In this document: piece by piece, positions 11,001 to 15,447 of the stretch
Position numbering within the stretch: position 1 is the first letter of the stretch
How the letters are laid out: every line of letters starts with the position of its first letter
Source of the DNA: Bacteroidota bacterium
Lineage (GTDB): Bacteria > Bacteroidota > Bacteroidia > Flavobacteriales_F > PHOS-HE28
Direction: 5' to 3'
NCBI GenBank assembly: GCA_018267065.1
Contig: JAFDZG010000156.1
Location: 1 to 34,316, forward strand
Length of the DNA: 34,316 nt
Notes under the pieces: generated by a model
Databases searched by the model: none
Told to the model about the DNA's origin: nothing
The model's input: only the letters and a program-made list of their open reading frames with translations
Translations under genes and position numbers: made by a program

Positions 11001-11369
11001 TCAAGCCGCTTTCGCAGCCGTAGCCTCTTCGCGCTTGGGGATGTTGAGCAACTTGAAGTCGTTGAGCACCACCTCCGTGATGAACCGCTTTACGCCATCC
11101 TTGCCGCTGTAGCTGCGATGCACCAAGCGGCCCTCCACCAGCACCGCACTTCCCTTGGCCAGCAGGCGGTCCACTTGGTCTGCGATGCGGCCCCATGCCA
11201 CCACCGTATGCCATTGGGTGTCCGTTACCTTTTCCCCTTCGCCATTGGTGTAGCGCTCATGGGTGGCCAAGCTCAGGCGGGCCACTTTGCGCCCCTTGGC
11301 GATCTCGCGCACTTCCGGATCAAAGCCCAAGTTCCCGATCAGGCGGACATTGTTGTTCAGCGTTTTCAT
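11001..11369 (-). CDS. Short single-stranded-DNA-binding protein paralog 1
   Basis: This is a 122-residue single-OB-fold SSB protein. It reads MKTLNNNVRLIGNLGFDPEV at the N-terminus, then SLATHERY, TQWHTVVAWGRIADQV, GSAVLVEGRLVHRSY and ITEVVLNDFKLL. It is shorter than housekeeping SSB (usually 140-180 residues) and ends EEATAAKAA, so the acidic DDxPF-type tip that recruits repair and replication proteins is absent. It may be an accessory SSB, for example for recombination, uptake or stress. The start at 11369 is preceded by an A-rich leader typical of Bacteroidota. An in-frame extension to 11471 is possible and its sequence resembles that of the paralog at 14946. Confidence 0.9.
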   Translation of the reverse strand: MKTLNNNVRLIGNLGFDPEVREIAKGRKVARLSLATHERYTNGEGEKVTDTQWHTVVAWGRIADQVDRLLAKGSAVLVEGRLVHRSYSGKDGVKRFITEVVLNDFKLLNIPKREEATAAKAA

Positions 11370-11513
11370 CGTGTTGTTGGTTTTAGGTTTTTCGCTGTGA
11401 AGGAGCCGTTGTTGTTGAACTCCGCCGCAAACCTTCACCCCTCCCCTTCCCTGATCCGGTTGATCTTGCATTTGTAATCGTTCATAGCTGTTTGTTGTCG
11501 TTTGTGCAACGAC
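11370..11513 (-). promoter_or_regulatory. Conserved leader with palindrome upstream of ssb paralog 1
   Basis: On the reverse strand this region begins with the inverted repeat GTCGTT-GCACA-AACGAC (11497-11513). Twelve bases after its 15-bp core comes a 16-codon open frame (11435-11485, MNDYKCKINRIREGEG), then an A-rich stretch up to the ssb start. The same order, spacing and much of the sequence recur before the second ssb paralog (15309-15447). TTG at the palindrome and TATGAACG 20 bases later could be -33 and -7 elements of a non-standard promoter. Alternatively the whole block is a transcribed regulatory leader. The sequence alone does not decide. Confidence 0.55.
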
Positions 11514-11628
11514 AGATTTTCTTGGGATCCGGCCGGTGTCTGCTTAACTTTCAACAAAACATTCACCGACCAGGCAGCGCGGCCATGGAATTCCGTGTCT
11601 TGCCTGCGGAAAACACCCGAGCCGACCA

Positions 11629-12198
11629 GTGCGAGAGCTGGACGAACATGAGCTGGCACGCCGGTGCCAGCACGAGGACCGCAGCGCACAGGAAGTCCTG
11701 TACGCGCGTTATGCACGGCGCATGTTCGCCGTGTGTCTACGCTATGCACGCCACCGGGCCGAGGCGGAAGACCTCCTGCAGGAAGGTTTTATCCGGGTGT
11801 TCGACAAACTGCATGCCTTCCGCTTGGAGGGTTCCTTGGAGGGATGGATACGCCGCATCATGGTACATAGCTGCATCAACCACCTGCGGAAACGGTCGGT
11901 GCGGAACGAAGTCCTCGGCACCGACCAAGTGCCGGAACGAAGCGAAAGCCCATTGGCCCCGGGCAACCTGGGGCAGGAAGAGCTAATGGCCTTGGTGCAA
12001 CAGCTTCCGGACGGCTACCGCATGGTCTTCAACCTCTTTGCAATTGAAGGCTATGAACATGCGGAGATCGCGGAAATGCTGGGCTGCAATGAAGGCACCT
12101 CGCGCAGCCAACTGAGCAAGGCGCGGCGCATGCTGCAACAGAAGATCGAGGAATTGAACGCATTGGAAAAACATGAGGGAGCAACATCCGATCGATGA
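11629..12198 (+). CDS. RNA polymerase sigma factor, ECF subfamily
   Basis: This is a 189-residue protein with sigma region 2 at about residues 20-90 (LYARYARRMFAVCLRYARHR, then EDLLQEGFIRVFDKL and GWIRRIMVHSCINHLRK). Region 4 lies at about 120-172 (LPDGYRMVFNLFAIEGYEH, then IAEMLGCNEGTSRSQLSKAR, a helix-turn-helix). It lacks regions 1.1 and 3, as ECF factors do. It would redirect RNA polymerase to a small regulon. Its last 26 bases overlap the start of the next gene, which has the features of its anti-sigma factor. TAACTTTC at 11545-11552 is a weak -7 candidate. Confidence 0.93.
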   Translation: MRELDEHELARRCQHEDRSAQEVLYARYARRMFAVCLRYARHRAEAEDLLQEGFIRVFDKLHAFRLEGSLEGWIRRIMVHSCINHLRKRSVRNEVLGTDQVPERSESPLAPGNLGQEELMALVQQLPDGYRMVFNLFAIEGYEHAEIAEMLGCNEGTSRSQLSKARRMLQQKIEELNALEKHEGATSDR

Positions 12199-13618
12199 AC
12201 TTTTCGCCCGCACCCTGCGGGGCGCCGAGGCCGAACCGCCACCAGGGGCGCTGGGCGGCATCCTGCGGGAGCGCTCGCGCCGACGCGCCGGTTGGTTGCG
12301 GCGATGGGGCTGGTTGCCTTTGCTTTTGCTTTTCGGCACAGGGCTGGGTTACCTGCTGGCCGGCAATCGTCACGCAAACAGCGGGGGGATCGAACCAAAG
12401 ATCCTGGCCTTGGGTAGCGCGCTCCCGGATGACCCTGCCAATGGCCATCAAGAAACCAAGCCCAACGGACTCCCGGGCATCCATGCGGACTCTGTTGCTC
12501 CACCCCCTGTCTCGTATGGGGGCAAAGCGAACGGGCCTGCTGCAATGGCACCGGACGAAAATGAACCAACAACGGCAAAAGCAATACCCGCACAGGGGAA
12601 ACCCGCGGCAAAACCCCGTGGCATGCAACCAGTCCAAGGCACCGGAGGCGGCCCTGCTGGATCCGTGACGGACAATTCCGGAACAGCCGCACAGCCGGAG
12701 CACCAAGTGCCATCCCTACAGCCTTCGGCTTCCCAGATCGTCGCTACCACCCCCCTGCAAATCGGAGCGTCTCTTGGTGTTGATCTGTTGGTCCGCAACG
12801 AGGGTTCAGCCCATGCAACATGGCTTCCCGTGCTCATTTCAAGCGTGGGCAGCGATCCAGGGGTGGCGGTCCCGCGAAACGCTCCGGCGTTGATTGCCGC
12901 AGGGCCACGTCGCAGCTGGTGGGTGGCCGCCATGGGCGGCCAGTTCCTCGAAAGCCGCAGATGGACGGGCGGCGAGGCCACGATCCGCGAGGCCCTGCAA
13001 GCCACCGAGCCGGTCCACGCCACCACGGCCCTGGGCATGCTTGCCGGCGTGAACGGACGCGGCGGATGGAGCTTGGCCATCGGCGCGGAATACCATGCTG
13101 GCCGCTACGATTTCCGGCATACGGACCGCTTCCAAACCCGCCATGACTCCATCTTCAACCATGTGATCACCTTCAACTCCCTGGTACTGCAAACCACCAC
13201 GGACACCATTACTACCTATCGCCAGGAACAACGCATCGCGGCCTCCGTGAACCGCTATGCCATGCTGCGCATCCCCTTGGAATTGGGCTGGCATGCACCT
13301 TTGGGCCGGTTCCGCCTGGGTGCCCGCGCCGGGGTGGCCCTGGAGCTCACCGACCTGCGTTCCGGCACCCTGCTCGTAAACGGGCCCGAAGGTCCCTTAA
13401 GCGTAGAGGTCCAGCCCGCCCACAAACAATGCATGTCCGTGCTGGGCGGCAGCGTTGGCGCGGACTTGGGCTACATCCTCACCGAACAATGGTCCCTGTG
13501 GGCCTCTCCGGTGTATGAAAAGGGCCTGCTTTCTTTGTTGCCACCGGACAACTCCCCTTACGCCCTGGCCGAGCGCAGCGGCATCCGCCTCCGCCTGGCA
13601 TACACCTTCCGCCCCTGA
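12173..13618 (+). CDS. Putative dual membrane-spanning anti-sigma factor (Dma-like)
   Basis: This is a 481-residue protein with four visible parts. Residues 1-45 are a charged N-terminus (HPIDELFARTLRGAEAEPPP), a pattern common in Bacteroidota anti-sigma-like proteins, ending in a basic cluster RERSRRRAGWLRR. Residues 47-64 are one transmembrane helix; the basic cluster puts the N-terminus in the cytoplasm. Residues about 65-195 are low-complexity and rich in Pro, Gly, Ala and Gln, suggesting a disordered periplasmic linker. Residues about 245-481 alternate amphipathic strands and end IRLRLAYTFRP, like an outer-membrane beta-barrel. This matches the dual membrane-spanning anti-sigma (Dma) architecture reported in Bacteroides thetaiotaomicron. 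Pairing with the overlapping sigma gene supports the role. No biochemical proof can be drawn from sequence. Confidence 0.72.
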   Translation: MREQHPIDELFARTLRGAEAEPPPGALGGILRERSRRRAGWLRRWGWLPLLLLFGTGLGYLLAGNRHANSGGIEPKILALGSALPDDPANGHQETKPNGLPGIHADSVAPPPVSYGGKANGPAAMAPDENEPTTAKAIPAQGKPAAKPRGMQPVQGTGGGPAGSVTDNSGTAAQPEHQVPSLQPSASQIVATTPLQIGASLGVDLLVRNEGSAHATWLPVLISSVGSDPGVAVPRNAPALIAAGPRRSWWVAAMGGQFLESRRWTGGEATIREALQATEPVHATTALGMLAGVNGRGGWSLAIGAEYHAGRYDFRHTDRFQTRHDSIFNHVITFNSLVLQTTTDTITTYRQEQRIAASVNRYAMLRIPLELGWHAPLGRFRLGARAGVALELTDLRSGTLLVNGPEGPLSVEVQPAHKQCMSVLGGSVGADLGYILTEQWSLWASPVYEKGLLSLLPPDNSPYALAERSGIRLRLAYTFRP

Positions 13619-13621
13619 GCC

Positions 13622-14755
13622 ATGCCTGCCATTCGCCGTTGGATCCATGCATCGGGCCTTGCACTGGCCTCCGTTGCCAGCTTGGCGCAGCCCGCGTGCG
13701 ACAGCCTGCACCAGGTGGATTTCACGTGGCAGGGCTACGGTACCTACGGCATCGCGTTCACGCCCGGCGCACCAGCCTCCGGCGCGCCGGTACTGTACAC
13801 GGAATGGGGATTTGCCGGCGAAAGCCTGCTGGACTATAGCACCCAATACCAGCCCACCTACACCTTTCCCGCACCGGGCAACTACCTGGCCTGCCTGCAC
13901 GCCACCGTGCAGGATGATCAACAAGGCTACTGCCTGTCCACCGCCTGCCAAGTAATTGACGTACCTGTGGACGCGCAATGCGCCGGACTGGCCGCCGCCT
14001 TCACCATCGAGGTGCAAGGCAGCGGCATTCACTTTATCGACCAGTCGCAATCCGGCCAGCCGATCACCGGGTGGCAATGGGCTTTTGGCGATGGCGGAAG
14101 CTCCTCCGAAACTTCACCCGTATACACCTATTCCGGGCCGGGGCCATTCCGGGCTTGTCTTACGGTAAGCAGCGGCAACTGCGCGGCCACCGCGTGCAAC
14201 TGGATCTACTTGGGCCCGCCCGATGTGCCGTGCGACACGCTTCTCCAAGCAGACATCGGCATCCTGCAATTGGGGCCGAGCATCGCCGTGTTCGACCAAA
14301 GCATCGTCTCCGGAATGAATTCCTCGGTGACATGGGATTTTGGCGATGGCACCAGTGCCAACGGAAGCCCGCAGATACACACGTACCAGTACGATGGCTA
14401 TTACGATGTGTGCGCCACGGTATCGCTCTGGGGTCCGCTAACGCCTGACACATGCTCCGCCACGGCCTGCGAGTACGTGTACACCGACGTGTCCACCGGG
14501 CTCCCCGCGGCTTCCAAAGCGGGGAATATCACGGTGGGGCCAAACCCCTTTACAGATCAGCTTGCCGTGGAAGGCGTTAACGGAGGGGGAAATTGGCAGT
14601 TGACGGATGCACTGGGGCGGGTATGCCTGTCCGGCAATTTCATGCAGTCTTCACCAGGGCGGCTTTCCCTTAAGGGCTTGGTGCCGGGTTCCTATCTCCT
14701 AAGGATCCATGCAGGCCAACAGACCACGGTACTGCGGGTGGTGCGTGGCAATTGA
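13622..14755 (+). CDS. Secreted PKD-domain protein with type IX sorting domain
   Basis: This is a 377-residue protein starting three bases after the Dma-like gene. It has a signal peptide at about residues 1-22 (ALASVASLAQ). Three PKD-like beta-sandwich repeats follow; two carry the classic WxFGDG core (WQWAFGDGGSS, VTWDFGDGTSA), and each repeat ends in a similar Ser/Ala-Thr-Ala-Cys segment. The C-terminal ~75 residues (VGPNPFTDQLAVEG, DALGRVCLSG, LVPGSYLLRIHAG, then a short VLRVVRGN end) are a type A T9SS sorting domain. The protein is therefore expected to cross the outer membrane through the type IX system and stay attached to the surface or be released. Being in the sigma/anti-sigma operon, it may be a target or partner of that system. 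Confidence 0.88.
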   Translation: MPAIRRWIHASGLALASVASLAQPACDSLHQVDFTWQGYGTYGIAFTPGAPASGAPVLYTEWGFAGESLLDYSTQYQPTYTFPAPGNYLACLHATVQDDQQGYCLSTACQVIDVPVDAQCAGLAAAFTIEVQGSGIHFIDQSQSGQPITGWQWAFGDGGSSSETSPVYTYSGPGPFRACLTVSSGNCAATACNWIYLGPPDVPCDTLLQADIGILQLGPSIAVFDQSIVSGMNSSVTWDFGDGTSANGSPQIHTYQYDGYYDVCATVSLWGPLTPDTCSATACEYVYTDVSTGLPAASKAGNITVGPNPFTDQLAVEGVNGGGNWQLTDALGRVCLSGNFMQSSPGRLSLKGLVPGSYLLRIHAGQQTTVLRVVRGN

Positions 14756-14945: not shown

Positions 14946-15308
14946 TTATGCCGCCTCGGCCACACTGCTTTCCACTACCTGGAAGCTGGTCATCACCACC
15001 TCCGTGAAGTAGCGCTTCTGGCCGTCCTTGCCGTCATAGCTGCCATGCACCAGGCGGCCCTCCATGGAAATGCGGCTACCCTTGCGGAGCTGTTCCGCCG
15101 CCTGTGCGGCCAGCTTGCCCCAGGCCACGATGCCGTGCCACTGGGTGTCTTCCTTGAATTGCCCCTCGCCGTACGCAAAGCGTTCGTTTGTTGCCAGGCT
15201 GAAGCGCACTTTCTTTTTGCCGCCGTCAAACTCACGCAGTTCGGGGTCTTTGCCCAGGTTGCCCATCAATTGTACACGGTTGCGGATCAGTTTTTCGTTG
15301 GTTTCCAT
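14946..15308 (-). CDS. Short single-stranded-DNA-binding protein paralog 2
   Basis: This is a 120-residue OB-fold SSB, clearly related to the gene at 11001. Matching segments include RVQLMGNLGKDPELREF, FSLATNERF, DTQWHGIVAWGKLAAQA, SMEGRLVHGSYDGKDG and YFTEVVMTSFQV. It ends VVESSVAEAA, again without the acidic C-terminal tip used by SSB to recruit partner proteins. The start at 15308 follows an A-rich leader (CCAAAAACACGAACAATGG). An in-frame ATG at 15389 would add 27 residues that partly match the upstream frame of paralog 1. Two such paralogs 3.5 kb apart suggest duplication, with the sigma/Dma operon lying between them. Confidence 0.9.
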   Translation of the reverse strand: METNEKLIRNRVQLMGNLGKDPELREFDGGKKKVRFSLATNERFAYGEGQFKEDTQWHGIVAWGKLAAQAAEQLRKGSRISMEGRLVHGSYDGKDGQKRYFTEVVMTSFQVVESSVAEAA

Positions 15309-15447
15309 TGTTCGTGTTTTTGGTTGTTCGTGTTTGTTCCGGCCGGTTGTTTGCTGGCCGCTGCAAACATTCAACCCCCGGCCCGCCATATTCGGCCAGT
15401 AGGCGTTTATAGGCGTTCATAAGCGTTGGCTTTCGTTTGTACAACGA
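15309..15447 (-). promoter_or_regulatory. Conserved leader with palindrome upstream of ssb paralog 2
   Basis: The reverse strand has TCGTT-GTACA-AACGA (15433-15447), identical at 14 of 15 bases to the palindrome before ssb paralog 1. A start-like ATGAACG again follows 12 bases after the palindrome, and the middle segment (GTTTGCAGCGG here, GTTTGCGGCGG there) is also conserved. Similarity between the two loci begins at the palindrome and is not seen upstream of it. A shared operator, promoter or RNA leader is therefore likely. Confidence 0.55.

Follow-up and report, generated by a model that had tools for sequence, protein, structure and literature searches.

A predicted Dma-like anti-sigma factor in a conserved operon with an ECF sigma factor and a type IX secretion cargo protein in Bacteroidota

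Gene organization of the locus

The window analysed here, a stretch of 34,316 nt, is one contig of a 3.3 Mb genome, and the relatives used for comparison are Flavobacteriales MAGs. A check of the open reading frames revealed three open frames on one strand, which encode an ECF sigma factor, a protein of 481 residues, and a protein with a PKD domain and a type IX secretion system (T9SS) sorting domain (Table 1). The original prediction, made from the sequence alone, had claimed that the second gene overlaps the sigma gene and is followed after three bases by the PKD/T9SS gene. This layout held at the coordinates in Table 1, with an overlap of 26 nt and with the ATG start of the PKD/T9SS gene 3 nt past the end of the second gene. 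The operon is flanked on the (-) strand by two diverged ssb-like genes (11001-11471 and 14946-15389).

Table 1. Positions of the operon features, of the predicted parts of the 481-residue protein and of related loci
Feature	Position	Strand	Basis or remark
Predicted autoregulatory ECF promoter	11573-11601	+	GGCAGC 11573-11578, N18, GTCTT 11597-11601
ECF sigma factor, 189 aa, GTG start	11629-12198	+	Pfam, TIGR02937, orthologs
Dma-like trans-envelope anti-sigma factor (predicted), 481 aa	12173-13618	+	AlphaFold2, Foldseek, ortholog alignment, regional conservation
Secreted PKD-domain protein, T9SS type A sorting domain, 377 aa	13622-14755	+	Pfam, TIGR04183, ortholog position
Putative sigma-binding module	residues 1-45 of 481-aa protein		two predicted helices, strongly conserved motif
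Inner-membrane helix (predicted)	residues 47-66 of 481-aa protein		hydrophobic; present in aligned orthologs
Disordered tether (predicted)	residues 67-242 of 481-aa protein		low pLDDT
8-stranded outer-membrane barrel (predicted)	residues 248-478 of 481-aa protein		AlphaFold2, Foldseek
Long predicted extracellular beta3-beta4 hairpin	about residues 318-358 of 481-aa protein		model
Predicted regulon genes, window's genome	L195, L198, L200, L201		secreted proteins 6-65 nt downstream of motif
~505-aa T9SS family as third gene	L115-L117, L121-L124, L128, L129, L133, L134, L151, L162, L165, L166, L172, L178

The product of the first gene matched the Pfam domains Sigma70_r2 (E=2e-17) and r4_2 (E=5e-17) as well as TIGR02937 (E=3e-27). 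Its orthologs in the same genus are 59-80% identical to it and have a non-ATG start at the same place as the GTG of the window. There are 17 related sigma genes in the window's genome and several per genome elsewhere. The product of the third gene matched PKD_4 in Pfam (E=1e-22), and its T9SS sorting domain was recognised by TIGR04183 (E=7e-7, 29.2 bits against a cut-off of 23); the Pfam model Por_Secre_tail scored 21, under its cut-off of 27. An N-terminal signal peptide was read from the sequence, and the protein meets the criteria for type A T9SS cargo, namely a signal peptide and a C-terminal sorting domain.

Predicted architecture of the 481-residue protein

Searches of Pfam and NCBIfam gave no confident name for the 481-residue protein (OMP_b-brl, E=0.004, below the cut-off), and it was therefore judged by a structural model and by its homologues. 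The AlphaFold2 model, built on an alignment of 18 sequences, placed helices at residues 6-18, 24-45 and 47-66, followed by a region (66-242) with almost all residues below a pLDDT of 50 and no structure, and then by eight long strands, mostly with a pLDDT of 80-98. Foldseek matched the predicted barrel to OmpA (TM 0.72) and NspA (0.71), by target length, and also to OmpT. If the two barrel termini lie in the periplasm, as those of OmpA do, the model implies that strands 3 and 4 (299-334 and 337-377) form a hairpin that reaches well outside the membrane.

Regional conservation among the same-genus orthologs was highest, for a long region, in the N-terminal 35 residues (0.53), and the alignment revealed a conserved N-terminal motif, HPIDELF..L.DAE..PP. 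The tether was the least conserved part, with a pairwise identity of 0.11 and a length of 144-196 residues across orthologs. The tip of the hairpin (325-348) showed a value of 0.41, against 0.28 for loop L3 and 0.23 for loop L4, and loop L1 (0.44) equalled the tip. The barrel strands and the loops showed about the same degree of conservation, and no single ligand site stood out.

The model predicts that this protein spans both membranes, a prediction for which there are no experimental data. We regard it as Dma-like on the basis of its architecture and the adjacent sigma gene; it was not compared in sequence with Dma1 or Dma2, and binding to the sigma factor is inferred. The original prediction had proposed a dual membrane-spanning (Dma) layout, which the AlphaFold2 and Foldseek results support, and would have been refuted by a soluble domain in place of the barrel, whereas structure prediction gave an 8-stranded outer-membrane barrel. 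Its call of a membrane helix at 47-64 held, but its linker of about 130 residues did not, as the model gives about 176.

Conservation of the operon within the genus

Full-length orthologs of the 481-residue protein were present in most of 45 same-genus genomes. The sigma gene directly precedes the anti-sigma gene in all 29 same-genus loci with an upstream flank, and an ortholog of the PKD/T9SS gene, 27-58% identical, comes next in all 29 with a downstream flank. At two loci (L013 and L021), the start of the anti-sigma gene was set by the ATG at the conserved HPID start and not by the automatic call. The occurrence of the three-gene order at every locus with flank shows that the arrangement is more than chance.

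Two other sets of related genes were observed. The window's own genome holds another sigma/Dma-like pair (contig C288; L040 4941-10501), which adjoins two PKD/T9SS genes, in the order cargo, cargo, sigma, Dma-like, and the exact GGCAGC-N18-GTCTT motif was not found upstream of this pair. In addition, shorter paralogs (frames of about 363-370 aa at G043:C56:17149, G010:C53:4899, G014:C89:30226 and G002:C1:2868772) align with the profile only over its N-terminal and linker portions. Those of G010 and G002 adjoin sigma genes 42-44% identical to that of the window, and the shorter paralogs may be anti-sigma factors without a barrel.

Conservation of the operon outside the genus

Of 396 genomes sampled across the class, 310 had a Dma-like homologue in a search with a class-wide profile. 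Beyond the genus, 83 loci were examined, with genes called by longest open frames, and in these an ECF sigma gene directly precedes the Dma-like gene in 81 of 84 cases. Among the next genes outside the genus that are co-directional and within 350 nt, 24 of 57 encode a T9SS sorting domain, compared with a background of 34 among 318 other genes from those stretches (p=7e-8). This p value is optimistic because the loci are related and the first 40 or so were picked by closeness to the query. The original prediction had suggested a search for the three-gene order in other Bacteroidota, and the outcome is that sigma and Dma-like genes are nearly always paired and that T9SS cargo is recurrently third.

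One third-gene family, shared by 17 loci (Table 1), recurs behind the sigma/Dma pair across many families of Bacteroidia. Its members are homologous over their full length, are mostly about 505 aa long and carry a T9SS domain; those scanned showed no known domain except the sorting signal. The remaining third genes outside the genus encode lipoprotein-like, PKD/T9SS and VWA proteins. Mapping of these labels onto a quick tree built from 98 Dma-like proteins revealed strong clustering: the T9SS-505 label required 5 changes, against 15.9 in shuffles, and the PKD, lipoprotein-like and VWA labels changed 1, 2 and 1 times, respectively. Many deep forks of this tree are weak and its long branches meet, and only the clustering of labels was used. 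The partner is therefore, for the most part, characteristic of the Dma clade. At two loci (L136 3411-5054 and L138 2709-4295), the Dma-like proteins seem to have two tandem copies of the N-terminal sigma-binding motif.

A predicted promoter and its predicted regulon

The hexamer GGCAGC was common to the sigma upstream regions in 28 of 29 same-genus loci, and many of these then have GTCTT. In the window, the spacing is 18 and the motif ends 27 nt before the GTG start. A CGTC-type -10 is expected of ECF sigma factors, and the predicted -10 block resembles it. With spacings of 17-19, the motif occurs seven times in the window's genome, against once for a reversed control, and the only sigma gene among these exact matches is that of the window. 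Four of the seven lie shortly before genes for signal-peptide proteins; for two of these four genes, the sequence retrieved includes a T9SS domain, and for a further one (C320) the genome-wide profile search gave a T9SS match. Two matches lie inside genes. A related motif (GGCARC and a TCT box) was seen, by eye only, before sigma genes in other families.

The pattern was fixed after the analysis of the window's genome and then tested in seven relatives, with nearly all matches fetched; the counts for eight genomes include the discovery genome. First, motifs with a spacer of 18 lay before a signal-peptide gene in 34 of 52 instances, while those with spacers of 17 and 19 together did so in 2 of 22 (p=8e-6). 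Second, when GTCTT was preceded by a pyrimidine, a signal-peptide gene followed in 33 of 45 instances, and when it was preceded by a purine, in 1 of 7. The refined motif is GGCAGC-N18-YGTCTT. Third, 24 of the 26 complete signal-peptide proteins downstream of the motif in the eight genomes carry a T9SS domain. These downstream proteins fall into about 18 families, seven with two or more members, and so do not represent one duplicated gene. The signal-peptide rule and the T9SS profile were home-made, and Pfam or NCBIfam confirmed some of the T9SS calls.

Genus-wide, the spacer-18 motif was found 216 times where the locus is present, against 33 for reversed-pattern controls, and was not enriched in three genomes without a sigma ortholog (11 against 9; present versus absent, p=0.001). 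These three genomes are only 82-95% complete, and G025, which has a sigma ortholog, was counted as locus-present. The excess of GTCTT shrinks to 31 against 13 in seven genomes in which the operon promoter has another -10 end. That promoter ends in GTCAA in five genomes, and among the loci fetched there the GTCAA motif marked, beyond its own operon, one secreted-protein gene only. The regulon therefore varies within the genus.

These computations show the conservation of the operon, the promoter motif and the link of the motif to T9SS cargo genes. That the sigma factor reads the motif is inferred, because autoregulation is presumed, because the two are lost together and because the -10 variation of the operon and of the motif goes together. 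The original prediction had seen the surface protein as either the signal or the output of the system; the promoter regulon strongly supports the output idea, and the signal idea, on which no test result bears, remains a possibility.

Comparison with known systems

Dma1 and Dma2 of B. thetaiotaomicron control vesicle formation (PMC13088901; Pardue 2024 cited there), and their targets are NigD1 for Dma1 and polysaccharide loci for Dma2 (PMC13088901). The 481-residue protein resembles them in its N-terminal anti-sigma module, membrane helix, long disordered tether, C-terminal barrel and adjacent sigma gene, and Dma2 likewise lies in a three-gene operon. In contrast to both, the third gene of the window encodes T9SS cargo, and the predicted regulon consists of T9SS cargo. 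The PorXY-SigP system of P. gingivalis (PMC7712824, PMC4800418) also links an ECF sigma factor to type IX secretion, and there too a T9SS-domain surface protein, PorA, influences the signal. However, SigP takes its input from a two-component system and regulates genes of the secretion machinery, whereas the window has a predicted barrel-bearing anti-sigma factor and cargo targets. The SM6 ECF promoters of Flavobacterium psychrophilum (PMC9723704) share a CGT box at -10 and are likewise linked to T9SS genes and an ECF/anti-sigma pair, but the targets listed for them are secretion machinery (GldN, PorU) and the controlling pair is unresolved. No Dma architecture is described for SM6 in the sections of that paper bearing on it, and we found no paper linking a Dma system to T9SS cargo in the literature searched. 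What is new here is the predicted promoter GGCAGC-N18-YGTCTT upstream of the sigma operon, with a predicted regulon mostly of signal-peptide genes.

Proposed mechanism and its significance

In the absence of binding or expression data, we consider it likely that this locus encodes a Dma-type surface-to-transcription switch for T9SS cargo. In this scheme, the barrel of the 481-residue protein would be embedded in the outer membrane, its N-terminal helices, connected to the barrel through the inner-membrane helix and the tether, would reside in the cytoplasm, and the protein would keep the ECF sigma factor from acting. The sigma factor would be freed when the barrel or the protruding hairpin senses a change, with the signal unidentified and with pulling, conformational change or proteolysis as possible release steps, and would then transcribe from GGCAGC-N18-YGTCTT promoters. 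Its predicted targets are its own operon (sigma, Dma and PKD/T9SS genes) and, unlinked to it, a small number of genes whose products are surface proteins exported by the T9SS. The binding of the sigma factor by the Dma protein and the direction of signalling are inferred. The third protein may be an output only, and feedback from it is possible.

The Dma family was described only recently, and what its members sense is unknown. The present analysis supplies a promoter and a set of T9SS surface proteins as targets, both predicted, together with a candidate partner at the cell surface, and the question of what Dma barrels sense becomes directly testable. We propose a way in which Bacteroidota could match the expression of surface proteins to the state of the outer membrane.

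Alternative explanations

An elaboration of the proposed switch, whose likelihood overlaps with that of the switch itself, is that the third T9SS protein is the ligand: once exported, it would dock on the hairpin, report T9SS function and close a feedback loop. The strict operon linkage in the genus, the tracking of the Dma clade by the third-gene family, a hairpin tip more conserved than the extracellular loops L3 and L4, and the precedent of PorA acting on PorXY-SigP signalling (PMC7712824) favour this reading. However, loop L1 is as conserved as the tip, there is no contact model, and many Dma-like genes elsewhere have no adjoining cargo, and we consider this reading less likely than not. 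A bolder form, a closed surface homeostat in which the barrel reads the T9SS protein of its own operon and adjusts the T9SS surface-protein set, is likewise less likely than not. If true, each Bacteroidia Dma clade would have a dedicated surface partner, with the ~505-aa T9SS family and the PKD/T9SS, lipoprotein-like and VWA proteins as candidates.

A further possibility, less likely than the proposed switch, is that the system senses envelope-assembly stress, with barrel insertion itself as the signal and the barrel not a receptor. Stalled barrel assembly or T9SS export would leave the protein cleaved or misplaced and free the sigma factor, and cargo would be a stress output. The similar conservation of strands and loops, without a single ligand site, and the envelope phenotype of the known Dma1 and Dma2, which affect vesicle formation (PMC13088901), are compatible with this explanation. 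On the other hand, the predicted regulon is T9SS cargo, and the promoter matches included no recognisable chaperone or assembly-factor gene, although those without a following signal-peptide gene were not individually annotated.

It is unlikely that another ECF sigma factor is the one that reads the promoter and that the operon is merely one of its targets. Several related sigma genes do occur per genome (17 in that of the window). However, no second sigma gene with the exact motif was found in the window's genome, the enrichment of the motif is lost where the window-type sigma factor is lost, and the -10 block of the operon differs by clade, with the GTCTT enrichment weakening along with it.

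Finally, a chance neighbourhood, in which T9SS genes are so common (about 150 sorting-domain matches in the window's genome, roughly 5% of genes) that adjacency means nothing, was rejected by the next-gene test and the conservation tests and is all but ruled out, as the same third ortholog occurs in every same-genus locus with flank, next genes outside the genus show a T9SS excess (24 of 57 against 34 of 318, p=7e-8), and T9SS genes at other places in the genome are preceded by the promoter motif.
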